From positions 627,382 through 691,381 of the forward strand of contig NZ_CATNLZ010000001.1 in the NCBI RefSeq assembly GCF_950101795.1: 64,000 nt of DNA, read 5' to 3'. The position numbers and the translations under genes were made by a program. The notes under the pieces were generated by a model, which worked only from the letters and a program-made list of their open reading frames with translations, was not told the origin of the DNA and did no database searches. This DNA is from Nocardioides sp. T2.26MG-1. GTDB taxonomy: Bacteria; Actinomycetota; Actinomycetes; Propionibacteriales; Nocardioidaceae. Shown here piece after piece: positions 33,325 through 44,643 of this stretch; the first letter of the stretch is position 1; every line of letters begins with the position of its first letter.

Positions 33325-34776
33325 TCATCCACCTCGCTCGGCCGACTCGGCACCGAAGCCGTTGAGCCGCTGGAACAGCGGGTCGGTGAAGCCGGTGATC
33401 TCCGCATACACCGGCACGATGTCGGCGTACCGTTCCGCACTCCCCGGGTCGGGCAGCACGTCAGTCCCGGAACGCACCATCGCCGCGACGGCTGACTCGA
33501 AGTCCGGGTAGCTGCCGTGTCCCACGGCGGCGCAGATGGCGGCACCGAGGCCGGCCGCATCGGAGACGGCCGATCGCTCCACGGGCCGGTTGAAGAGGTC
33601 GGCGGCGATCTGGCTCATCAACGCCGAGCGCGACCCACCACCTGACAGCACCAGCCGACCGGGCGACAGGCCGAGCGCGGCCTCCAGGGCCTGGGTGTGA
33701 CCATGCATCGTCATGAGGATGCCCTCGAGCAGCGATCGATACAGGTGCGCCGCCTGGTGCGACCCATCCAGCCCGAGGATCGCACCTCGTCGGTACGGCG
33801 CGTGTCCGGGCGCGAGCCAGTCGGGCACGGTGAAGAGCCCGCCGCAGCCGGGGGGGACGGCGGCGGCGCCGACCTCCAGCCACGACTGGATCGCCGCCGG
33901 GTCGGTCGTGTCGGGCAGTGCGGCGGAGACCAGCTGCCGCAGCCAGCTCACCGTCCACATGCCGCGGCGGATCCCGGCGCTCTCGTAGAGGTAGCGCCCC
34001 GGTACCGCCGCGGCGTTGACCCAGAACCGGTCGTCACCCTCGACGAGCTCCCGGCCGACCGTCATCGCGGCGATGTAGGTGCCGAGCGACAGCAGCACCG
34101 ACCCGCCCCGGACCAGACCGGACCCGAGCGCCTCGACCGCCTTGTCGTTGCCGGTCGCGTACACCGGCAGGCCCGCCGGGATGCCGGTCTCCGACGACAC
34201 TGCCGGCAGCACCTCGCCCAGGAGCTCGCCGGGATCCACGAGTGAAGGCAGCAGCTCGAGCGGCATGCCGGTCCGGTCGAGCTCAGTCGGCGCCGTCGAC
34301 CACTGTCGGGTGGCGGGATCGATCGGCCACATTCCTTGATAGCTCGCGGCGCTGTCTCGCCGTACACCCGTCAGCCGCGCGGCCAGATAGCCCCCCGCGC
34401 TCGCGACCAGCGTCACCTCCGCAGGCACCGGCGACAGCGGCCGTGACACTCGCGCGTCCATCCAGCTCAGCACCGGCTCGACCAGTCTCCCGTCGGAGCC
34501 GACGAGTGCGCGGCAGAACCGAATGCCACAGAGCCCGACCGCGACGATTCCCGACGTCTCGCCACCCGCGGCGGCGAACGACGCCAACGCCGCACGCGCG
34601 GCGCCGACGAGGGTGTCCCAGAGGTCGTCGTCGGGGTGGACGGCACGGCCGTTCGGCCCGAGCTCGTAGGGTCGCAGCGGCACGGACGCCGACGCGTGCA
34701 CCACGCCCAGCTGGTCGATGACCGACACCTTGGTGCTCTGCGAGCCCCCGTCGATCGCGAGGAACAGGTCGGTCAC
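33325..34776 (-). CDS. FGGY-family carbohydrate kinase
   Basis: A 483-aa sugar or polyol kinase. The N-terminal phosphate-binding loop FLAIDGGSQSTKVSVID (about 4-20), the middle YATGNDKAVEALGSG and the C-terminal LSGGGSRSALMSQIAADLFNRPV match the FGGY family (xylulokinase/glycerol kinase relatives). GTG 34776 overlaps the upstream oxidase stop by 4 bp. It is the last gene of the ten-gene operon and should phosphorylate the product of the upstream oxidation steps. Substrate specificity cannot be read from the sequence. Confidence 0.88.
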   Translation of the reverse strand: MTDLFLAIDGGSQSTKVSVIDQLGVVHASASVPLRPYELGPNGRAVHPDDDLWDTLVGAARAALASFAAAGGETSGIVAVGLCGIRFCRALVGSDGRLVEPVLSWMDARVSRPLSPVPAEVTLVASAGGYLAARLTGVRRDSAASYQGMWPIDPATRQWSTAPTELDRTGMPLELLPSLVDPGELLGEVLPAVSSETGIPAGLPVYATGNDKAVEALGSGLVRGGSVLLSLGTYIAAMTVGRELVEGDDRFWVNAAAVPGRYLYESAGIRRGMWTVSWLRQLVSAALPDTTDPAAIQSWLEVGAAAVPPGCGGLFTVPDWLAPGHAPYRRGAILGLDGSHQAAHLYRSLLEGILMTMHGHTQALEAALGLSPGRLVLSGGGSRSALMSQIAADLFNRPVERSAVSDAAGLGAAICAAVGHGSYPDFESAVAAMVRSGTDVLPDPGSAERYADIVPVYAEITGFTDPLFQRLNGFGAESAERGG

Positions 34777-36272
34777 TGCCTGCCGTCCTCCGCGAGGACC
34801 GGAAGGCCCGCCTCGTCGATCGGGAAGAGCGAGCCGGGATTCATGACATGGTGCGGATCGAAGGTCCGCTTCAACCCGGACAGCAGGTAGTAGGCGCTGC
34901 CGTGCTCCTCCCGCACCCACGGCGTCCGGTACTTCCCGACGCCGTGGTGGTGCACCATCGACCCGCCGACCCGCAGCGCCTCCTCGACGATGATCGCGTT
35001 GAGCGGGACGTGATACTCCTCGATCTCCCGACGCGGCTCACAGGCGATCCGGTAGTCGTAGACGAAGTAGAGGTTCGTGCCGGTCTGGTAGGAGTGTGAC
35101 GAGTGCGCACCCAGCAGGGTGAGGTCGCCGGCCCGCGGAAAGGTCGTCCGGATCCGCGTCATCACGGCGTGGTACAGCTCCGCGGTGCGCGACCAGTCGA
35201 CCGAGACCTCGGTCGTGTAGCCGAGGTGCGAGGTGCGCAGCATGTCCTGCTTCTCGGCCTCGATCCGGTCCGGACCCCAGTTGAGGTGCTCGAACCAGCT
35301 GCGGATCCGCTCCTCGGCCACCGGGAGATGCTCGACCGCGGCGGCCATCTCCTCGACGGCGGCCGACGTCGCGGCCACCAACCGCGCCGGACCCTCGGAC
35401 GAGAGCACGACCAGGTTCTGGTTCATCGGATGGTCAGGGAAGTGCTGGCGCGCGTCCTCGGGAGAGTAGAGCCGCGCGACCGCGGGGCGGTAGCCCGCGG
35501 TCAGCACGTCCCTCAGCAGCCCCACGCCGGCGCCGAAGTCCCGGACCATGAACCCGTGGTACCGCGCGGTGTCCGGGTACCAGCGGAACACCTTGACGGT
35601 GACCTCCGTGATGAAGGCGAGCGCGCCCTCGTTGCCGATCACGACGTGCCGGATGTCCGGACCGGCGGCCCGGCGCGGCACGTTCTTGATCCGCACGATC
35701 CGCCCACCGGGCAGGACCGCCTCGAGCCCGACCACCATGTCCTCGATCGCGCCGTACAGCGTGGAGAACTGCCCGATGGACCGCGTCGCGACCAGGCCGC
35801 CCAGCTGGGCGATCGGCTTGGACTGCGGAGAGTGCCCGGTGGTCAGGCCCTGCTCACGGAGCTGGTCCTCGAGGCGCTGGAGCGGTACGCCGCACTGCGC
35901 GGTCACCATCATGTCCTCGGCGTTCACGGCGATGACGCGGTCCATGCGGGACCCGTCGAGGACGATGGCGTCCTCGACGACCGTCTCCAGGCCTCCCTCG
36001 GTGCTCGTGCCGCCGGTCCGCGGGACGACCGCGATCCGCTCGCGGTCGGCCAGCTCGAGCAGTGCGGCGACCTGGTCGGTCGAGGTCGGGTAGGCGATGA
36101 TCGCGGGGATCGGCCCGTCGAAGATCCCGTGCACGGCGGTGTACTTGCGGAACCGGTCCACGCTGCTGGCGCGCAGGTGCGACTCGTCGGTGTCCACCTG
36201 CGCGACACCGAGGATGCTCGTGACGGCCGCGACGACCTCGTCGCGGCTGAGGGTGGAGCGGGAGGCGACCAT
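34773..36272 (-). CDS. FAD-binding oxidase, AGPS/GlcD-like
   Basis: A 499-aa flavoprotein of the vanillyl-alcohol-oxidase superfamily. FAD-binding motifs PRTGGTSTEGG and the central QSKPIAQLGGLVATRSIGQFS are followed by a C-terminal domain ending in MVHHHGVGKYRTPW, the HHH/GVGK signature of alkyldihydroxyacetonephosphate synthase. In bacteria such proteins more often oxidise hydroxy acids or polyols than make ether lipids. ATG 36272 follows GAAGGA. Its 4-bp overlap with the kinase suggests oxidation followed by phosphorylation of one substrate. Confidence 0.85.
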   Translation of the reverse strand: MVASRSTLSRDEVVAAVTSILGVAQVDTDESHLRASSVDRFRKYTAVHGIFDGPIPAIIAYPTSTDQVAALLELADRERIAVVPRTGGTSTEGGLETVVEDAIVLDGSRMDRVIAVNAEDMMVTAQCGVPLQRLEDQLREQGLTTGHSPQSKPIAQLGGLVATRSIGQFSTLYGAIEDMVVGLEAVLPGGRIVRIKNVPRRAAGPDIRHVVIGNEGALAFITEVTVKVFRWYPDTARYHGFMVRDFGAGVGLLRDVLTAGYRPAVARLYSPEDARQHFPDHPMNQNLVVLSSEGPARLVAATSAAVEEMAAAVEHLPVAEERIRSWFEHLNWGPDRIEAEKQDMLRTSHLGYTTEVSVDWSRTAELYHAVMTRIRTTFPRAGDLTLLGAHSSHSYQTGTNLYFVYDYRIACEPRREIEEYHVPLNAIIVEEALRVGGSMVHHHGVGKYRTPWVREEHGSAYYLLSGLKRTFDPHHVMNPGSLFPIDEAGLPVLAEDGRQ

Positions 36273-36306
36273 GCGGGGTCCTTCGGGGGTCGGAGGTGGG
36301 ATCGGG

Positions 36307-37095
36307 TCAGCGGACGAGGTAGCCGCCGTCGACCACGAGCACATGGCCGTTGACGTAGTCCGACGCCCGTGACGCGAGGAACACGAGTGCGCCCATCAGG
36401 TCGGCCGGGTCGCCCCACCGGCCCGCCGGGATGTGCTCGACGATCCGCCGGTTGGCGTCGTCGTCGCCGCGGGTGGCGGTGGTGATCGCGGTCGCGAAGT
36501 AGCCCGGCGCGATCGCGTTGACCTGGACGTTGTGGGCACCCAGCTCGTCGCAGTAGGCCTTGGTGAAGCCGACGATGCCTGCCTTGGTGGCGGCGTACGC
36601 CGGTGACTGCCGTCCGCCGAGGAACGAGAACAACGAGGCGATGTTGACGATCTTGCCACTGCCCTGGCGCACCATCTCGGCGCTGGCTGCGTGGGCGATC
36701 TCGAAGGCGGCGGTCATGTTCACCGCGATCATCGGGTCCCACTGCACCCGGCCGAAGTCGGCGACGTCGGCGAGGAGGCAGATCCCCGCGGAGTTCACCA
36801 GGATGTCGACCCCGCCCAGCTCCTCGACGCACCGCCGCACCGCGGCTGCCGGCACGCCGGCCTGGGTCAGGTCGGCCTGCATGCTGGCGTAGCGACGGCC
36901 GTGTCGTCCGGCCACCAACGCCGCGGTGCTCCCCTCGTCCGGCGTGATGCTCGGGACGAACACATCGGCTCCGGCCGCGGCCAGCGCGACCGAGAACGCG
37001 TGCCCGAGGCCGGTGTTTCCGCCGGTCACGATGGCGCGCTTGCCGGCGAGGGAGAAGTGGTCGAGCCCGAAGGCGTCGACGGACGGGCCGCTCAC
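36307..37095 (-). CDS. SDR-family oxidoreductase (gluconate 5-dehydrogenase/KduD-like)
   Basis: A 262-aa NAD(P)-dependent dehydrogenase. It has TGGNTGLG (cofactor, about 24-31), NSAGI, the catalytic Ser in ASLFSFLGG and YAATK (Tyr/Lys). The C-terminal VVDGGYLVR is typical of sugar-acid or polyol dehydrogenases. GTG 37095 overlaps the aldehyde dehydrogenase stop by 4 bp. It likely acts on a polyol or hydroxy acid within the operon's pathway. Confidence 0.88.
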   Translation of the reverse strand: MSGPSVDAFGLDHFSLAGKRAIVTGGNTGLGHAFSVALAAAGADVFVPSITPDEGSTAALVAGRHGRRYASMQADLTQAGVPAAAVRRCVEELGGVDILVNSAGICLLADVADFGRVQWDPMIAVNMTAAFEIAHAASAEMVRQGSGKIVNIASLFSFLGGRQSPAYAATKAGIVGFTKAYCDELGAHNVQVNAIAPGYFATAITTATRGDDDANRRIVEHIPAGRWGDPADLMGALVFLASRASDYVNGHVLVVDGGYLVR

Positions 37096-38579
37096 GCGGA
37101 ACGCTCCGCGGTCGCGAAGGGGTCGCGGATCCCGACGTACACGGTCTCGAGGTACTCCTCGATCCCCTCCGCACCGCCCTCGCGCCCGAGCCCCGAGGCC
37201 TTGACGCCGCCGAACGGGGCGGCGGGATTGGAGACCACACCCGTGTTGATGCCGACCATCCCGGACTCCAACTGCTCCGACAGCCGCAGCGCCCGGTCGA
37301 GGTCGCGGGTGAAGACGAAGGCGACCAGCCCGTACTCCGTGCTGTTCGCCGAGGACACCGCCTCCGCGTCGTCGTCGAAGACGATGACCGGAGCGACCGG
37401 GCCGAAGATCTCCTCGCGCACGATCGCCATGTCGGCGCGGACACCGGCGAGGACCGTCGGCGGATAGAAGTAGCCCGGCCCCTCGGCAGGAGCACCTCCC
37501 GTCAGCACCCGGGCACCGGCGGCGACCGCGCCGTCGACGAGCGCAGCGACCTTGGCCCGGAACCGTTCGTCGATGAGCGGGCCCAGCGTGGTCGAGGCCT
37601 CAGAGCCGGGTCCCACGACGAAGGCCTGCATCCGGGCGGTCAGCTTCTCGGTGAACTCCTCGGCGACCGAGGAGTGCACGAGGATCCGATTGGCCGCCAC
37701 GCACGCCTCACCGCCGTTGCGCATCTTCGCCACCAGGGCGCCCTCGACGGCCTCGTCGACGTCGGCGTCCGCGCACACGATCAGTGGTGCGTTGCCGCCG
37801 AGCTCCATCGACACCTTGAGCACCCGCTCCGACGCCGCGGCCATCAGCCGGCGCCCGACCGGCGTGGAGCCGGTGAACGACAGCTTGCGCAGCCGGTGGT
37901 CATCGAGCAGCGGCCCGCTGACCGCCCCCGGGTCCGTGGTGGTCACGACGTTGAGTACGCCGGCCGGCAGACCCGCCTCCGCCATGACCGAGGTGAAGAG
38001 AAGCGAGGTGAGGGGTGTGAGATCGGCGGGCTTGAGCACCATCGTGCAGCCGGCTGCGATCGCCGGTGCGACCTTGCGGGTCGCCATCGCGATCGGGAAG
38101 TTCCACGGCGTGATGAGCAGGCACGGACCGACCGGGCGCTTGCGCACCAGCAGCCGGTTGGCCCCGTCGGGCGCGGTGGCGTAGCTCCCCGACACCCGTG
38201 GCGCCTCCTCGCTGAACCAGCGAAGGAACTCGGCGCCGTACGCGACCTCGGCCAGGCTCTCGGTGAGCGGCTTGCCCATCTCGAGGGTGATCAGGCGGGC
38301 GAACTCCTCGGCTCGCGCGGTGACCAGTTCGAATCCGCGCCGCAGGATCTCCGCGCGCATCCGGGCCGGGGTCCGGCCCCAGGACTCCTGGACCCGGGCG
38401 GCCGCATCCAGGGCTCGGAGTCCGTCGGCAGCGGACCCGTCGGCCACCGACGCGATGACCGCGCCGGTCGCCGGATCGGTCACGCCGAAGCGACGCCCGC
38501 CCTCGGCCTCAACCCACGCGCCGTCGATGTAGAGGTCGGTGGGGATCCCGGCGATGACGTCGCCCACATCGGCACTCAT
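37092..38579 (-). CDS. aldehyde dehydrogenase, succinate-semialdehyde dehydrogenase-like
   Basis: A 495-aa NAD(P)-dependent enzyme oxidising an aldehyde to an acid. The oxyanion Asn is in ITPWNFPIAM, the general base Glu in ELGGNAP, and the nucleophile Cys in GGEACVAANR. FGGVKASGLGREGG near the C-terminus is the GabD-type ending. ATG 38579 overlaps the upstream dehydrogenase stop (ATGA). In a formaldehyde-producing context a semialdehyde left after deamination or demethylation is a plausible substrate, but this is inference. Confidence 0.92.
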   Translation of the reverse strand: MSADVGDVIAGIPTDLYIDGAWVEAEGGRRFGVTDPATGAVIASVADGSAADGLRALDAAARVQESWGRTPARMRAEILRRGFELVTARAEEFARLITLEMGKPLTESLAEVAYGAEFLRWFSEEAPRVSGSYATAPDGANRLLVRKRPVGPCLLITPWNFPIAMATRKVAPAIAAGCTMVLKPADLTPLTSLLFTSVMAEAGLPAGVLNVVTTTDPGAVSGPLLDDHRLRKLSFTGSTPVGRRLMAAASERVLKVSMELGGNAPLIVCADADVDEAVEGALVAKMRNGGEACVAANRILVHSSVAEEFTEKLTARMQAFVVGPGSEASTTLGPLIDERFRAKVAALVDGAVAAGARVLTGGAPAEGPGYFYPPTVLAGVRADMAIVREEIFGPVAPVIVFDDDAEAVSSANSTEYGLVAFVFTRDLDRALRLSEQLESGMVGINTGVVSNPAAPFGGVKASGLGREGGAEGIEEYLETVYVGIRDPFATAERSA

Positions 38580-39523
38580 GCCGTCACCGCCCGACGGGCC
38601 TCCGCGTCGCCTCCGAGCCGCATCGGGCGTCCGAGGAGGTCCTCGTAGAGCTGGAACGGCGTCATCTCGCCGGCGCGGTCGCCGTAGGTCGCCCGAGCCC
38701 GGCGGTAGACCTGCTCGACGACGGCCGAGACCTCTACCGGCACGCCCACCGTGGCGGCGAGGTCGGTCGACAGGCCGAGGTCCTTGCAGGCCAGGGCGAT
38801 GGCGAACCCCTCGTCGTAGTCGCCGTGCTGGAGGATCGAGACCACGTCGTGCTCGAGGAAGTTGCTGTTGGCCGGGCTGGCGACCAGCGCGTCGCGCAAC
38901 ACCCCGAGGTCGACGCCGGCCTTGACGCCCACGGCGAGCACCTCGGCGGTCGCCACCAGGTGGGAGAACCACAGCTGGTTGATCATCAGCTTGACGGCAT
39001 ACCCGGCCCCGTGCGGCCCCACGTGCAGGATCCGCTCCGGGTCGCCCATCGCCTCGAACACCGGTCGGAGCCGCTCGACCTGCTCGGCGTCGCCGCCGAT
39101 GAAGATCTGCAGCCGGCCGGCCGCGGCACCCACCGCCATCCCGCTCACCGGGGCGTCGAGGACCACGATGCCCCGGTCGGGGGTGCGCCGGCGTACGTCG
39201 TCGGCGACCGCCGGTACCGAGGTGGACATGTCGATCCAGGTGCCTTCGTCCGGCAGGCCGGCGAGGATGCCGTCCGGCCCGTTGACGACCTCGTTGACGA
39301 TCGCCGGCGTCGGCAGCATCGTGATCACGGTGCCGGCGCTTGCGGCGGCCGCGGCCGCGGAGTCGGCCACCTCTGCACCCAGGGCGGCGTACTCGTCGAG
39401 GAGCTCGCGGCGGGCGTCGTGGACGACCAGCTCGAACCCGGCCTTCAGCAGGTTGCGGGTCATGCCCGACCCCATGCTCCCGAGTCCGACGAAGCCGATC
39501 CGGGTCGGCGTGCGTTGCTGCAT
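38576..39523 (-). CDS. beta-hydroxyacid dehydrogenase (HIBADH/tartronate semialdehyde reductase-like)
   Basis: A 315-aa NAD(P)-binding dehydrogenase. It shows GFVGLGSMGSGMTRNLLKAG at the N-terminus, DAPVSGMAVGAAAGRLQIFIGG (substrate loop) and the catalytic Lys in GAGYAVKLMINQ. ATG 39523 is used because upstream in-frame sequence is low-complexity. It begins 14 nt after the fae-like stop. Substrates of the family are 3-hydroxy acids such as 3-hydroxyisobutyrate, glycerate or 4-hydroxybutyrate. Confidence 0.88.
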   Translation of the reverse strand: MQQRTPTRIGFVGLGSMGSGMTRNLLKAGFELVVHDARRELLDEYAALGAEVADSAAAAAASAGTVITMLPTPAIVNEVVNGPDGILAGLPDEGTWIDMSTSVPAVADDVRRRTPDRGIVVLDAPVSGMAVGAAAGRLQIFIGGDAEQVERLRPVFEAMGDPERILHVGPHGAGYAVKLMINQLWFSHLVATAEVLAVGVKAGVDLGVLRDALVASPANSNFLEHDVVSILQHGDYDEGFAIALACKDLGLSTDLAATVGVPVEVSAVVEQVYRRARATYGDRAGEMTPFQLYEDLLGRPMRLGGDAEARRAVTA

Positions 39524-39537
39524 GGTGTGGTCAGTCC

Positions 39538-40062
39538 TCACATGCTCGGTGTGGCAGGTGTGTAGAACGGGTTGTGGACGTCGCCGCGGGCGGCGAGGAC
39601 GTCGACGGTGGCCGGGAGCCCCAGCGCGCCGCTGCGCAGGGCCGTCGCGGTGGCCTCTCGGTTGTTGCGGAAGACCTCGTCCGCGTCGTTCGCTGCCGGG
39701 TTCACCCACACGGCGCAGATCAGCACCAGCTGGTCGAGGTCCAGTGCGCCGAGCGCCCCGCCGCCGTCCAGCTCGTCGCCGACGCCGGCGGCGACCCCGG
39801 CCTGCGCCGGACCCCAGATCATCAGCCCGTGCTCGTCGCCCTCCGGGGCGGCCTTGGTGACGAAGAGGGTCGGCGGCTTGACCGGGATGCCGGGCCTCAC
39901 CACCGCCATGAACGGCACGTGCCCCGCACTCGGAGTGGCGAGGGCGGTGGCCCAGGCCGTCCCGACCGGCCCCGAGCGACTGCCGAGGACGGTGTTGATG
40001 TGCGCGGCGTTGGCGCCCGAGCCGACGAAGGACTCGCCGACCTGATAGATCGGGTCGCTCAC
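39538..40062 (-). CDS. fae: formaldehyde-activating enzyme homologue (Fae family)
   Basis: A 174-aa protein. The N-terminal VGESFVGSGANAAHINTVLGSRSGPVGTAWA aligns with Fae of methylotrophs, including the conserved His (His21 here). GPAQAGVAAGVGDEL and the C-terminal NREATATALRSGALG...HNPFYTPA also match. Classical Fae condenses formaldehyde with tetrahydromethanopterin, a cofactor not expected in actinobacteria, which usually detoxify formaldehyde with mycothiol. GTG 40062 overlaps the binding-protein stop by 4 bp, so it is embedded in the transport operon. It could use another pterin or carry a different aldehyde. Confidence 0.85.
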   Translation of the reverse strand: MSDPIYQVGESFVGSGANAAHINTVLGSRSGPVGTAWATALATPSAGHVPFMAVVRPGIPVKPPTLFVTKAAPEGDEHGLMIWGPAQAGVAAGVGDELDGGGALGALDLDQLVLICAVWVNPAANDADEVFRNNREATATALRSGALGLPATVDVLAARGDVHNPFYTPATPSM

Positions 40063-40997
40063 TTCAGCAGGCCCGCGTCGTCGAGGAACTCGGCGGCGAT
40101 GTCCTCGGGATCCTCGCCGTCGACGTCGGCCTTCGCATTGAGCTCCTGCATCTTCTCGGTGGTCAGCAGGGGCGCGACCTCGCCGATGATGTCGGCGATC
40201 TCGGGGTACTTCTTCACCGCATCGGCGTCCATGGTCAACGCGCCTTGATAGACGGGGAAGAAGTGCTGGTCGTCCTCCATCACGGTGAGGTCCAGCGCCT
40301 TGATGCGCCCGTCGGTGGAGAACACCTCGCCGAAGTTGCAGTCGTCGCCCTTCTGGGTCGCGGTGTAGATGACGCCGGTGTCGAGGAGCGTGACGTTGCC
40401 GTCCGGGACGTCGATGCCGTAGGCCGCCGAGACGCCCGGCCAGCCGTCGTCTCGGGTGCTGAACTCGCTCTCGATGCAGAAGGTCTGCTCCGAGTCCGGC
40501 AGCGCGGCGACGTCGCTGAGGGTCTTCACGGCGAGCTCGGCGGCCTTGTCGGAGCGGATCGCGAAGGCGTAGGTGTTGTTGAACGGCGCCGGGTCGATCC
40601 ACGCGATGCCGTTCTTGGCGTCGGCCTCCTTCACGGCGTCGAACTGCTGCTGGGGGTCGGTGATCGGCTTGGTGTTCTTCAGGTAGGTGATCCACGCCGT
40701 GCCGGTGTACTCCCAGTAGCCGATGAAGTCGCCGTTCTCCAGGGCCTGACGGGTGTTGGCCGAGCCGACCAGCTGCGTGTTCACGTCGACGTCGGCGCCG
40801 TGCGCGTTGAGCAGGTCGCCGGTGATGTAGGCGAGGATGTACTGCTCCGAGAAGTCCTTGGAGCCGATGGTGCCGGTCAGTCCGTCCAGCTCCTGGCCGG
40901 CGCTCCCGGAGTCGGAGTTGCCGTCGCCACCGCAGCCCGCCGCGGTGAGGGCGAGGACGCTGAGGCCGATCAGGGCAGGAGCGAGCTTCTTCTTCAT
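40059..40997 (-). CDS. glycine-betaine/quaternary-amine-type substrate-binding lipoprotein
   Basis: A 312-aa OpuC/ProX-type (QAT family) binding protein. The lipobox is LTAAGC (Cys22). The conserved GSKDFSEQYILAYITGDLL, GSANTRQALENGDF and YWEYTGTAW segments are present; aromatic residues in the latter form the cation-binding box in relatives. ATG 40997 lies just after GAAGGAA; the GTG/ATG at 41012 adds MRRNT. The family binds betaine, choline, carnitine or similar cations, but ligands are diverse. Confidence 0.9.
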   Translation of the reverse strand: MKKKLAPALIGLSVLALTAAGCGGDGNSDSGSAGQELDGLTGTIGSKDFSEQYILAYITGDLLNAHGADVDVNTQLVGSANTRQALENGDFIGYWEYTGTAWITYLKNTKPITDPQQQFDAVKEADAKNGIAWIDPAPFNNTYAFAIRSDKAAELAVKTLSDVAALPDSEQTFCIESEFSTRDDGWPGVSAAYGIDVPDGNVTLLDTGVIYTATQKGDDCNFGEVFSTDGRIKALDLTVMEDDQHFFPVYQGALTMDADAVKKYPEIADIIGEVAPLLTTEKMQELNAKADVDGEDPEDIAAEFLDDAGLLK

Positions 40998-41090
40998 CGT
41001 GTTCCTTCGCATGGTGAGGGGTCAGAGGGCAGATCCGGTCAGCGGTCGGTGCCGGTCACGGAGGAGGGCATCGGCCGGAGCCGGGGATCG

Positions 41091-41894
41091 TCAGAGTCCG
41101 CGCGGGCGCACGAGCTCCTCTACGAGACCGGCGAGCCAGTCGATGAGGATCGCGATGGCGGCCACCAGGCTGGACCCGACGATGAGCACCGGGTAGCGCT
41201 GGAGCTTCAGGCCGTTCACGATCATGTCCCCGAGACCGCCGGCGTTGATGAACGTCGCGATGGTCGCGACTCCGACGGCGAAGACCAGTGAGGTGCGCAG
41301 GCCGGCCAGGATCACTGGGGAGGCGAGGGGAAGCTCGATCCGGCGCAGCACCTGCCACCGGGTCATGCCCATGCCGCGTGCCGACTCCCGCGTGGGTGCG
41401 TCCACCTCGGCAAGTCCGGTGAGCGTGTTGCGCAGCACCGGGAGGAACGAGTAGGCGACCAGGGCGACGAGGGCGGTGGTGAACCCCGTCTTCCACACGA
41501 TCGCCAGGAGGATGACGACTCCGACTGCAGGTGTGGCCTGGCCGATGTTGGCGAGCGCGAGCACCAGCGACCGGAGGAGCCTCGACCGGGTGAGGTGGAT
41601 GAGGATCCCCACCGGGATGGCGATCACCGCGACCAGCGCTGCGGCGGCGAACGAGAGCTCGAGGTGCTCGCGGACCCGGGCGACGAGGTAGTCGGAGTTC
41701 AGGGTCCGCTGCTCGATCGAGTCCAGGTCCTGGCTCTTGACCCAGATCAGGAGGACGACGAGCCCGGCAGCGATGAGGACGGGCGCGGCCAGGACGCGCA
41801 GGGGGGACAGACCGGTTCCCGGCGTGCCGAGGAGCGTGGTCCGGTCGCCGACGGCAGGCGTGCTGCCAGCGGGGGTCACGACGTCGACGCTCAC
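41091..41894 (-). CDS. QAT-type ABC transporter permease
   Basis: A 267-aa permease with about six membrane segments. The EAA-type loop ESARGMGMTRWQVLRRIELPLASPVILAGLR is in the expected position. An N-terminal polar extension of about 30 residues precedes the first segment. GTG 41894 overlaps the ATPase stop by 4 bp. Followed 93 nt later by the binding-protein gene; that short gap holds the ribosome binding site and no obvious terminator. Confidence 0.9.
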   Translation of the reverse strand: MSVDVVTPAGSTPAVGDRTTLLGTPGTGLSPLRVLAAPVLIAAGLVVLLIWVKSQDLDSIEQRTLNSDYLVARVREHLELSFAAAALVAVIAIPVGILIHLTRSRLLRSLVLALANIGQATPAVGVVILLAIVWKTGFTTALVALVAYSFLPVLRNTLTGLAEVDAPTRESARGMGMTRWQVLRRIELPLASPVILAGLRTSLVFAVGVATIATFINAGGLGDMIVNGLKLQRYPVLIVGSSLVAAIAILIDWLAGLVEELVRPRGL

Positions 41895-42919
41895 AGCGTC
41901 ACCGGCTGGGTTCGGGGCGCTCGGGTGAGGGCCGCGGAGATGTCGGCGTGTCGGAGCCGGCCGAGCACCCGGCCGTCCTCGTCGAGCACGGTCAGCGCGT
42001 CGGCACCGGTCACGACCAGCTGGTCGAGGGCGTCCCGCAGGGTGGCGGTCGCGGCCACGGTCGGCCCGGTGGCCGGCCCGGCGGCTGGCGCCAGGGCCGC
42101 GGCGGTGACCGTCAGCAGGGCGAGACGTTTCAGCGCTGCGCCGGAGCCGATGAAGGAGGCGACGTACTCGTTGGCGGGCGCGGCGAGGATCGCGTCGGGG
42201 GTGTCGAACTGCTCGATGCGGCTGTTGTCGCTCAGCACGGCGATCCGGTCTCCGAGGCGGACCGCCTCGTCGAAGTCGTGGGTGACGAAGATGATCGTCT
42301 TGCCGATGTCGGCCTGGAGCCGGAGGAACTCGGCCTGGAGCTTCTCGCGGGTGATCGGATCGGTCGCGCCGAACGGCTCGTCCATGAGCATCACCGGCGG
42401 GTCGGCGGCCAGAGCGCGCGCGACGCCGGCGCGCTGCTGCTGACCGCCGGAGAGCTGGCGCGGGAACCGCTTGGCGAAGACGCTGGGGTCGAGCTGGACG
42501 GTCTCGAGCAGCTCCTCGACCCGTGCGTTGATGCGCTTCTTGGGCCACTTCAGCAGCCGTGGGACGGTCGCGATGTTGTCCGCGATCGTCATGTGCGGGA
42601 AGAGGCCGATCTGCTGGATGACGTAGCCGATGTGGCGTCGCAGCTGGTCGGGCGAGAGACCGAGGACGTCCTGGCCGTCGATCCGGATGGATCCCGACGA
42701 CGGCTCGATGATCCGGTTCACCATCTTCATCGTGGTCGTCTTGCCGCATCCGCTGGGGCCGACCAGCATGATCAGCTCGCCCGGCTGGATGCGCATCGAG
42801 AAGTCCTGGACGGCGCTGACGCTCTGCCCGGGATAGACCTTGGTGACCCCGTCGAGCTCGATGCTGACGCCCCCGGACGTGTTCGTGGAGGACGGGAAGA
42901 TCCTGCTGGTGTCAGACAC
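41891..42919 (-). CDS. QAT-type ABC transporter ATP-binding protein
   Basis: A 342-aa ATPase with Walker A GPSGCGKTTT, signature LSGGQQQRAGVARAL, Walker B MLMDEPFGATDP and the switch His (FVTHD). The C-terminal region from about 275 has one recognisable CBS-like segment (TLRDALDQLVVTGADALTVLDEDGRVLG), as in osmoregulated OpuA/OpuC ATPases, though the second CBS motif is weak. GTG 42919 overlaps the upstream permease stop by 8 bp. Confidence 0.92.
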   Translation of the reverse strand: MSDTSRIFPSSTNTSGGVSIELDGVTKVYPGQSVSAVQDFSMRIQPGELIMLVGPSGCGKTTTMKMVNRIIEPSSGSIRIDGQDVLGLSPDQLRRHIGYVIQQIGLFPHMTIADNIATVPRLLKWPKKRINARVEELLETVQLDPSVFAKRFPRQLSGGQQQRAGVARALAADPPVMLMDEPFGATDPITREKLQAEFLRLQADIGKTIIFVTHDFDEAVRLGDRIAVLSDNSRIEQFDTPDAILAAPANEYVASFIGSGAALKRLALLTVTAAALAPAAGPATGPTVAATATLRDALDQLVVTGADALTVLDEDGRVLGRLRHADISAALTRAPRTQPVTL

Positions 42920-43637
42920 GGAGACCCCTGGGAGTGGTGAACCGGGCGATCAGGACGAAGAGGGCGTCGGCGACGAGGGCGAGCAGCACCACGCCGACGG
43001 TCCCGCTGAGCGCGTAGTTGAGAGCGTTGACGGATCCGAGGGAGGAGAGGCCCTTGAAGATGTACTGCCCCAGACCCGGTCCGGCGACGTAGGCACCGAT
43101 CGCGGCGATCCCGATGGCCAGCTGGGTCGCGACCCGGATGCCGGTGAGAATGATCGGCCACGCCATCGGCAGCTGCACCCGCAGCAGCACGTGGGTCGGG
43201 CTCATCCCCATGCCGCGCGCTGACTCCAGGACGTGGGCGGGGACCTCGCGCAGGCCGGTGACCGCGTTGCGGACGATGGGGAGCATCGAGTAGAGGACCA
43301 GCGCGGTCACGGTCGGCCCCCAGCCCAGCCCGAACAGCGGGCTGAGGATCGCGAGCAGCGCCAGCGACGGGACCGTGAGGATGATCGCGGTCGACGTGAC
43401 GGCGAGGTTCCGGCCGATGGGGCTGTCCCAAACCAGCAGCGCGATGGCGATGCTGAGCACGGTCGCGATCCCGACCGAGAGGGCGACCACCTCGATGTGG
43501 TCGACCATCATCTGAGTCAGGTCGTCGGAACGGCGATCGAGGAACGTCTGGAGGCCGCCGAGGCCCTGGTTGCCGTCGGCGCGGACCGACGAGTCGGCCA
43601 CCAGACCGTGTCGTCCCGCGAGTGCCAGCGCGTCCAT
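42912..43637 (-). CDS. QAT-type ABC transporter permease (first gene of operon)
   Basis: A 241-aa permease with about six membrane segments and the loop ESARGMGMSPTHVLLRVQLPMAWPIILTGIR. It pairs with the 267-aa permease as a heterodimer. ATG 43637 follows GGAGGAGG by 4 nt, a strong ribosome binding site for the first gene of the long operon that runs to 33325. An N-terminal polar stretch of about 35 residues precedes the first segment. Confidence 0.9.
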   Translation of the reverse strand: MDALALAGRHGLVADSSVRADGNQGLGGLQTFLDRRSDDLTQMMVDHIEVVALSVGIATVLSIAIALLVWDSPIGRNLAVTSTAIILTVPSLALLAILSPLFGLGWGPTVTALVLYSMLPIVRNAVTGLREVPAHVLESARGMGMSPTHVLLRVQLPMAWPIILTGIRVATQLAIGIAAIGAYVAGPGLGQYIFKGLSSLGSVNALNYALSGTVGVVLLALVADALFVLIARFTTPRGLRV

Positions 43638-43682
43638 GTCACCTCCTCCGAGAGTCTGAGTGCCGGCGCTCATCTCCTGCGA

Positions 43683-43696
43683 GTGACGGCCGTCAC
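43683..43696. promoter_or_regulatory. perfect palindrome upstream of the Fae/QAT operon
   Basis: GTGACGGCCGTCAC is a perfect 14-bp palindrome 46 bp upstream of the first permease ATG. It resembles the 7629 palindrome but retains full dyad symmetry. Candidate regulator site; IclR encoded divergently is the obvious protein to test. Confidence 0.4.
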
Positions 43697-43742
43697 GTTT
43701 GGTGTAGGACGATCGCAGTGCCGATTGAGTTTGCACAACGGA

Positions 43743-43761
43743 TGTTGCGTATATGTCAACA
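43743..43761. promoter_or_regulatory. TGTTG-N9-CAACA dyad before the IclR gene
   Basis: An inverted repeat with an AT-rich centre (TATAT) just upstream of the leaderless IclR promoter. In this GC-rich region the AT-rich core is unusual. It fits an IclR-type operator allowing autoregulation and control of the divergent operon. Confidence 0.45.
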
Positions 43762-43767
43762 ACTTCG

Positions 43768-43773
43768 TACGCT
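43768..43773 (+). promoter_or_regulatory. -10 box of a likely leaderless iclR-type promoter
   Basis: TACGCT is followed by 6 nt and then ATG 43780. Confidence 0.55.
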
Positions 43774-43779
43774 CGCCGG

Positions 43780-44643
43780 ATGTCCCGTGCCTCCGCGTCG
43801 AACGTCCCCGGGCGCCGCAACTCCAGCGGTCTAGCGCGGGACGTCGAGCTGCTCGAGCTGCTCGCGGGGCCGGACGCCCAGCGCGAGGGCGGCCTGCGGG
43901 TGCTGCAGATCGCCCAACTGCTCAGCCGGGACAAGGCGACCGTGTCCCGCGCTCTGGCGACCCTCGCCGACGCCGGACTGCTGCGCCGGGACCCCGAGCG
44001 GCTGACCTATGACCTGGGCCCGAAGCTGTTCGCGCTGGCTGCCCAGACCCAGGAGGCGGCGCTGGTACGGCGGGCTCGTCCCATCCTGCGCCAGATGGCC
44101 ACCTCCACCCGTGAGACGACCCACCTGTGCGTGCTGCGTGGCGGCAACGTCCTCACGCTGCTCAGCGAGCTGAGCTCCCAGGTGGTCGGCACCACCAGCT
44201 GGGCAGGCACGACCACGGCGGCATGGCGAACGCCGTCGGGACGCGTGCTGGTCAGCGACTGGGACCAGGCATCCGTGGCGTCGTGGTACACCACGCACGG
44301 CCACGACGCTGCCCTGGTCAACCCGCTCCAGTCCCCCGCACCCGGCGCCTTCTCGCTGCTCACCGACCCCGAGCCGGGCCGCCTCGTGGTCAGCGACCTC
44401 GAGACCCTCCACGCCGAGCTGACCCGCATCCGCCAGCGGGGGTACGCCACCTCCGACGCCGAGCTCGAGGACGGCGTGGTGGCCGCCTCGGCCCCGGTCC
44501 GCGACGCGTCCGGAGTGATCGTCGCCGCCTTGAACATCAGCGCACCCCGGTCCCGCCTCGGTGACCGCATGGACGAGCTGGGCCGGTACGTCGCGCACTG
44601 TGCACGAGCGCTCTCCGCCGAGCTCGGCCACGGCTCCTCCTGA
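43780..44643 (+). CDS. IclR-family transcriptional regulator
   Basis: A 287-aa regulator. The N-terminal winged helix-turn-helix (LRVLQIAQLLSRDKATVSRALATLADAGLLRRD) and the C-terminal effector-binding domain (about 100-280, ending in VAALNISAPRSRLG) define the family. ATG 43780 is selected from the leaderless promoter geometry rather than the in-frame start at 43753. It is divergent from the ten-gene Fae/QAT operon, whose likely local regulator it is; whether it represses or activates is unknown. Confidence 0.88.
   Translation: MSRASASNVPGRRNSSGLARDVELLELLAGPDAQREGGLRVLQIAQLLSRDKATVSRALATLADAGLLRRDPERLTYDLGPKLFALAAQTQEAALVRRARPILRQMATSTRETTHLCVLRGGNVLTLLSELSSQVVGTTSWAGTTTAAWRTPSGRVLVSDWDQASVASWYTTHGHDAALVNPLQSPAPGAFSLLTDPEPGRLVVSDLETLHAELTRIRQRGYATSDAELEDGVVAASAPVRDASGVIVAALNISAPRSRLGDRMDELGRYVAHCARALSAELGHGSS

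Follow-up and report, generated by a model that had tools for sequence, protein, structure and literature searches.

The 64,000-nucleotide stretch of the Nocardioides sp. T2.26MG-1 genome analysed here, which we refer to as the window (contig NZ_CATNLZ010000001.1, positions 627,382 to 691,381), carries ten genes in its open reading frames, all on the minus strand and running from position 43637 down to 33325, that pair a homolog of the formaldehyde-activating enzyme (Fae) with an ABC importer of the quaternary-amine type and a series of dehydrogenase, oxidase, and kinase genes. An original prediction, made from the DNA letters, had taken the genes at 33325-43637 to be one unit, and the junctions bear this out: six of the nine are overlaps (8, 4, 4, 4, 4, and 4 bp) and the others are gaps of 78, 14, and 34 bp. 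Our reading, to which we assign a probability of roughly one half, is that the locus is a conserved betaine-catabolic operon with its own IclR-family regulator acting at a single operator, built around a core of Fae, a HIBADH-like dehydrogenase, and an aldehyde dehydrogenase (ALDH), in which Fae probably functions without tetrahydromethanopterin (H4MPT); its substrate and the reaction of Fae are what we infer from sequence comparison. The IclR gene and the conserved motif beside it are additions to the gene list of the original prediction. The features, including the substrate-binding protein (SBP) and a short-chain dehydrogenase/reductase (SDR), are as follows.

42912-43637, minus strand: PERM1, ABC permease, operon gene 1; ATG at 43637, preceded by GGAGGAGG
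41891-42919, minus strand: ATPase of the ProV type; TIGR01186 (proV) 318.8 bits, slightly below the cut-off of 326.6
41091-41894, minus strand: PERM2, second ABC permease; BPD_transp_1 96.9 bits
40059-41012, minus strand: SBP (OpuAC; relative of ProX, OsmF, and EgtU); PF04069 194.6 bits
39538-40062, minus strand: FAE, 174 residues, formaldehyde-activating-enzyme family (TIGR03126); His21 retained, Asn23 replacing Asp
38576-39523, minus strand: HIBADH-like beta-hydroxyacid dehydrogenase; PF03446 and PF14833
37092-38579, minus strand: ALDH, succinate-semialdehyde-dehydrogenase (SSADH)-like; TIGR01780 547.7 bits, below the cut-off of 646
36307-37095, minus strand: SDR; 60.7% identity to E. coli YgcW
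34773-36272, minus strand: AGPS-like FAD enzyme; 54.7% identity to E. coli YgcU, HHHGVG motif aligning with AGPS
33325-34776, minus strand: FGGY-family kinase; 40.3% identity to E. coli YgcE
43780-44643, plus strand: IclR-family regulator gene, divergent from the operon; PF01614 and PF09339
43744-43760, minus strand: conserved motif GTTGACATATACGCAAC (consensus GTTGNCATATNNNCAAC), predicted IclR operator, from intergenic comparison and genome search
43730-43739, minus strand: half-site GTTGTGCAAA, 4 bases beyond the motif; a similar GTTG-type sequence occurs in many other regions (uncounted)

PERM1 was assigned through its Streptomyces clavuligerus counterpart (51% identity, annotated as an ABC permease) rather than through a family scan of its own. 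The top NCBIfam match of PERM2 is ProW at 68.7 bits, far below the cut-off, and the CBS match of the ATPase, at 23.1 bits, lies slightly below its cut-off of 24. The HIBADH-like protein scores below all NCBIfam cut-offs listed and is nearest in the PDB to 3obb (HIBADH) and 3cky (2-hydroxymethylglutarate dehydrogenase); for the ALDH, entries named as SSADH make up seven of the top eight PDB matches. The notion that the dehydrogenases are gamma-hydroxybutyrate enzymes was set aside as weakly backed, the HIBADH-like protein being nearest to HIBADH and a Burkholderia aldo/keto reductase (AKR) found near Fae being nearest to DepB and other AKRs. A search of 43500-43900 for a sigma-70-like promoter found none, and there is no Rfam match at the gathering threshold within the window.

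The Fae subfamily and the substrate-binding protein

The 174-residue protein belongs to the Fae family, as originally predicted, scoring 133.6 bits against TIGR03126 (curated cut-off 118.05) and 152.2 bits against PF08714 (cut-off 27), and it is the sole PF08714 match in the genome. When its predicted model (pLDDT 73.3, pTM 0.74) was searched with Foldseek, all five matches at E<=0.001 were Methylobacterium Fae (1y5y and 1y60; top match 1y5y, E 1.1e-12), with TM-scores of 0.74-0.75 by query length. The sequence AHID of M. extorquens Fae reads AHIN in the window. We take its histidine to be the catalytic one, His17 in M. extorquens numbering, and Asp19, Lys66, Thr68, and Gln83 of the Methylobacterium enzyme are presumably ligand contacts.

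To set this residue in context, 102 Fae of the group (the window, 80 related loci, S. clavuligerus, 16 from a phylum search, and four from proteobacteria) were compared with four H4MPT-type Fae from Methylocystis, Azospirillum (mch close by), Paraburkholderia, and Rhizobium. The site His, Lys, and Gln are retained in 106 of 106 sequences. The residue two after the catalytic His is Asp in all four H4MPT-type Fae and, in the group, Asn in 101/102 and Thr in 1/102, a count that is partly by construction for the 80 loci, as these were seeded by patterns favouring AHIN. The pattern-free sample, consisting of the 16 Fae found by profile search of 396 Actinomycetota genomes and the four proteobacterial sequences, has 15 Asn and 1 Thr in the former and 4 Asn in the latter. 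The group separates from the H4MPT-type sequences with an SH-aLRT value of 100. On this comparison the operon Fae is a member of a separate subfamily in which the catalytic His is kept and the neighboring Asp is changed to Asn.

Methenyl-H4MPT cyclohydrolase (MCH), the sole H4MPT marker searched, has no match in any of 44 genomes; two profile searches supplied 19 of these, the window's own included, and the other 25 are from among those behind the 80 loci. This agrees with the earlier view of a Fae standing outside its H4MPT setting; H4MPT-linked C1 metabolism was rejected on these grounds, and the operon Fae probably works without the cofactor. It thus resembles the methylene-H4MPT-forming Methylobacterium enzyme (1y5y, 1y60) in family profile, fold, and site His, Lys, and Gln, and differs from it in having Asn for Asp, no MCH in the genomes searched, and catabolic, non-C1 neighbors. 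A second bacterial Fae subfamily in genomes in which no H4MPT marker was found would mean that a "Fae" annotation is no safe sign of methylotrophy there.

The PDB relatives of the SBP are binders of choline, betaine, and ergothioneine, together with sensors engineered from such a protein. The cage and carboxylate-binding residues of EgtUC are catalogued and compared with those of ProX in an excerpt of PMC9732360, and an excerpt of PMC8820738 describes cation-pi tyrosines in related choline and nicotine sensors. In a set of 74 SBPs (the window and those from 73 of 81 loci, which yielded at least 75% of the protein), with residues matched to EgtUC, like ProX an SBP of cluster F-III, by motif and spacing rather than by superposition, the aromatic cage residues Y102, F231, and Y255 are present in 74/74 and Y148 in 73/74. 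The carboxylate-binding K52, T105, and R187, counterparts of K242, T296, and R379 of EgtUC (PMC9732360, excerpt), are likewise present in 74/74, and F54 is identical in all 74. Tyr216, tried as the third cage residue, is wrong by spacing, and F231 fits better. The importer was originally predicted to be of the quaternary-amine type, and the retained betaine-cage residues speak for this. We infer that the ligand is a zwitterionic betaine. The importer is like ProX, OpuC, and EgtU systems in its subunits, OpuAC domain, and cage and carboxylate residues, and differs from them in being tied to an IclR-linked catabolic operon and in having Phe at one cage position and Asn at the cage base.

A conserved motif and two alternative modules

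The predicted operator was examined in 60 intergenic regions, those of the window and of 59 loci in which the IclR gene is oriented divergently from a nearby first permease gene. The consensus GTTGNCATATNNNCAAC occurs in 60/60, with 0 mismatches over its 12 fixed positions in 33 regions, 1 in 20, and 2 in 7 (in L065 and L070 the best match, with 2 mismatches, is on the opposite strand); in a control of one mononucleotide shuffle per region, 3-7 mismatches were found. The 5.14-Mb genome has one site at <=1 mismatch, that at window 43744-43760. In an exact search, 10 of 16 related genomes had a single site, in each case within a Fae locus by coordinates, and the other 6 had no site; a backward control pattern gave one match in the same search. 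The IclR protein would bind this motif with the operon as its only target and, because the site is single genome-wide, the operon probably makes up the whole regulon. Two more palindromic stretches separate the motif from PERM1, at window 43657-43672 and 43683-43696.

Related loci were collected by a scan of public genomes seeded with the peptide patterns NAAH[IV]NTV and IWGPAQAG, from which the best 80 of 133 stretches encoding a relative were taken, and synteny was counted in the 64 of these 80 that have at least 7 kb on either side. The IclR and HIBADH-like genes are each present in 64/64, and the complete quaternary-amine ABC set and the SSADH-like ALDH each in 60/64. Synteny in other actinobacteria, on which the original prediction depended, is therefore conserved. 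At two loci, L074 (Nanopelagicales) and L067 (an uncultured actinobacterium, with 0.9 kb between Fae and the end of the contig), IclR, Fae, and HIBADH alone are recognisable. Among 58 relatives of the genome, three carry Fae and the same three carry a YgcU/AGPS-like gene (77-100% identity, one match clipped by a contig end); a fourth has an AGPS match of 35% identity at E<=1e-60. One could argue from the importer subunits, which are nearest to osmoprotectant systems, that the locus serves osmoprotectant uptake and that its metabolic genes came together by chance. We regard this as extremely unlikely, since importer and metabolic genes remain together, and with the same motif, across Nocardioides, Microbacterium, Lentzea, Umezawaea, Cryobacterium, Subtercola, and Arthrobacter; both the motif they share and the synteny argue against a chance gathering.

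The remaining genes vary. A module of YgcW, YgcU, and YgcE type (SDR, AGPS-like, and FGGY genes) is complete in 33/64 loci, and a module of an enolase-superfamily gene with an Fe-dependent alcohol dehydrogenase (Fe-ADH) is present in 26/64. The two are never complete in the same locus; five loci lack a complete module of either kind, among them L013, which reaches a contig end, and L079 has the SDR, AGPS, and FGGY module plus an enolase-superfamily gene. The module label changes at least three times on the Fae tree and at least four times on the SBP tree (quick trees with many weak branches). These repeated changes suggest that two alternative modules have been exchanged around one constant core.

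That the two modules are never complete together in the 64 loci would also suit a pathway for a C4 sugar acid or polyol, in which they would be phosphorylating and non-phosphorylating routes for the same sugar-like substrate. Aldol cleavage of 4-hydroxy-2-oxobutanoate gives pyruvate and formaldehyde, and Fae would catalyse or follow this step. In its favor, the enolase-superfamily protein has sugar-acid dehydratases as its closest matches, at scores far under their cut-offs. The SDR resembles KduD/gluconate-5-dehydrogenase and the kinase resembles XylB, each scoring under the cut-off, and at loci without the ABC set Fae is accompanied by transporters of the major facilitator superfamily (MFS), which in L075 and L105 match Pfam Sugar_tr. 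Against such a substrate stand the quaternary-amine-type importer found in nearly all of the syntenic loci and the cage and carboxylate residues conserved in 74/74 SBPs (Y148 in 73/74), and we consider this explanation rather unlikely.

Fae of the same group also occurs in other settings. A smaller set of ABC, SBP, Fae, HIBADH, and ALDH genes is present in S. clavuligerus (L102), where it sits on a 707-kb plasmid with its first ABC gene ~4 kb from a hybrid nonribosomal peptide synthetase/polyketide synthase gene. In Caballeronia and Burkholderia, Fae is found with AKR, ALDH, and MFS genes, and in Ensifer with AKR-like and ALDH genes; Caballeronia grimmiae has a second fae (L104:48-581) ~11 kb from the fae of its AKR/ALDH/MFS cluster. 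Sixteen further actinobacterial regions were examined and a Fae gene was called in 12, of which six have an enolase-superfamily gene, five have a HalD-like 2-oxoglutarate/Fe oxygenase gene adjoining Fae (L112, L113, L114, L117, and L118; three above the Pfam cut-off, two by sequence likeness), and the remaining one (L108) has Fae beside agmatinase-family, aminotransferase-like, and ALDH genes. Two other loci with the same family code as L108 (f21), L109 and L111, have an agmatinase-like gene with the enolase/Fe-ADH set, and in all three Fae adjoins genes for an agmatinase-family ureohydrolase and an amino-acid-permease-like protein. The HalD-like oxygenase and Fae could be a pair of oxidative demethylase or hydroxylase with formaldehyde handler.

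Proposed pathway and its alternatives

These oxygenase genes bear on the possibility that an enzyme encoded outside the operon N-demethylates a methylated quaternary compound and that Fae captures the resulting formaldehyde, tetrahydrofolate or a thiol replacing H4MPT as acceptor, an explanation we hold to be possible, though doubtful. The retained Fae fold and site His, Lys, and Gln, the lack of an MCH match, and the quaternary-amine type of the importer are all in line with it, as is a possible demethylase next to Fae in 5 of the 12 regions (three Pfam-confirmed). The genome itself speaks against it. We found no match to Ring_hydroxyl_A (Rieske-type oxygenases) and two to GCV_T above cut-off, one full-length at 285.6 bits in a GcvT-sized frame of 381 residues and one partial at 46 bits in a frame of 353 residues, with no GCV_T protein of demethylase size in the genome; the fused dimethylglycine and sarcosine enzymes are longer than either frame. 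These two families were the known N-demethylases tried, other demethylase classes lying outside the search. As the motif site is single, no co-regulated demethylase was seen, and a mycothiol-dependent formaldehyde dehydrogenase is already encoded on another contig (662.5 bits). Formaldehyde enzymes and routes elsewhere include a glutathione-dependent enzyme (excerpt of PMC5209427) and glutathione and H4MPT routes (excerpts of PMC4776306 and PMC4744692). The original prediction's release of a methyl group as formaldehyde thus found no backing in the families searched in this genome and, because of the missing Rieske-type match and the two short GCV_T frames, we do not rest our case on demethylation.

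The betaine-catabolic operon we propose would instead work as follows. The ABC system would import a zwitterionic betaine, that is, a compound with a quaternary ammonium and a carboxylate. The YgcE-, YgcW-, and YgcU-type kinase, SDR, and FAD enzyme would turn a polyol-like half of it into a phosphorylated ketose at the triose-phosphate level, a task that in the alternative architecture would fall to the enolase-superfamily, Fe-ADH, and ALDH module, acting by oxidation and dehydration. The HIBADH-like enzyme would oxidise the remaining alcohol to a semialdehyde, which the SSADH-like ALDH would convert into an acid, and Fae would take up a formaldehyde-level (methylene or hydroxymethyl) unit released en route, without H4MPT. 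Pathways of the vitamin B6, pantothenate, canavanine, carnitine, choline, and apiose types were dropped by reasoning alone. The gene set was put forward as undescribed, and we found no description of it among the literature matches listed for Fae, actinobacteria, betaine, and IclR, for betaine-lipid head groups, or for AGPS with FGGY, all in open-licence papers. The linked regulator, the conserved motif, and a purifiable binding protein make the substrate directly testable.

Several points weigh against this reading. Cage conservation cannot name a ligand; by spacing, Phe occupies one position of the cage and Asn its base, and the residue spacing of 50/46/39/44/24 in the SBP is near to, and inexact against, the 51/48/38/40/24 of EgtUC (PMC9732360, excerpt). 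The ABC set is missing in 4/64 loci, and in one of them, L075, the Sugar_tr-type MFS nearby could fit a non-quaternary substrate. The agmatinase-family gene and the HalD-like oxygenases that neighbor Fae elsewhere show no evident betaine link. The regions in which the motif was counted are also those from which it had been derived, so that the genome-wide searches are its independent test. As to Fae, the pattern seeding touches the Asn count, H4MPT was searched by one marker, and the tree program flagged long branches and an odd residue make-up in the four H4MPT-type rows. Finally, E. coli, which served as a control of the profile search, has ygcS, ygcU, ygcW, and ygcE yet no Fae, and a Caballeronia fae had no DNA match in 5,426 E. 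coli genomes.

The last three genes of the operon had been predicted in part, as a polyol-type oxidase and kinase; both genes are present, but with the SDR they are relatives of YgcU, YgcE, and YgcW. In E. coli K-12, ygcS, ygcU, ygcW, and ygcE carry putative annotations (ygcN-ygcE region, L123:6658-17375). The region resembles the operon in having these three relatives together, and differs in having no annotated Fae, HIBADH, ABC importer, or IclR, with putative flavoprotein genes, a 4Fe-4S protein, and a putative antiterminator instead. The window operon has its ABC importer in place of a YgcS-type MFS, relatives of which occur in other loci only: the MFS adjoining Fae is 56% identical to YgcS in Burkholderia multivorans (L105), 38% in Leifsonia (L075), and 37% in the actinobacterial L107. 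The Fae subfamily appears tied to exchangeable catabolic gene sets, one of which matches the putatively annotated E. coli ygcU, ygcW, and ygcE and the transporter gene ygcS.

The AGPS-like enzyme has FAD_binding_4 and FAD-oxidase_C domains, and its nearest solved relatives are AGPS, the alkyl-dihydroxyacetone-phosphate (alkyl-DHAP) synthase (E 3.6e-52; next group 1.4e-30). It shares the HHHGVG motif with AGPS, in which we take the HHH to be catalytic; it differs in being bacterial and in lying in an operon with a kinase and an SDR. The locus might degrade the betaine-lipid head group glyceryl-trimethylhomoserine. The YgcE-, YgcW-, and YgcU-type enzymes would phosphorylate and oxidise the glyceryl part and cut the ether by a reversed alkyl-DHAP synthase reaction to give DHAP, and the freed C4 hydroxy-betaine would be oxidised by the dehydrogenase and the SSADH-like enzyme, with Fae acting on a methylene intermediate as a formaldehyde lyase or hydratase that needs no pterin. 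This scheme agrees with AGPS ether chemistry and with the SBP cage, and we nevertheless think it improbable; if true, E. coli ygcSUW-ygcE would gain a first proposed role, in the use of ether-linked glyceryl compounds. Among the literature matches listed (open-licence papers), no paper assigns the ygc pathway. According to excerpts of two papers, YgcS overexpression raised the yield of nicotinamide mononucleotide (PMC8601175) and D-serine induces ygcU 1.69-fold (PMC13012123).

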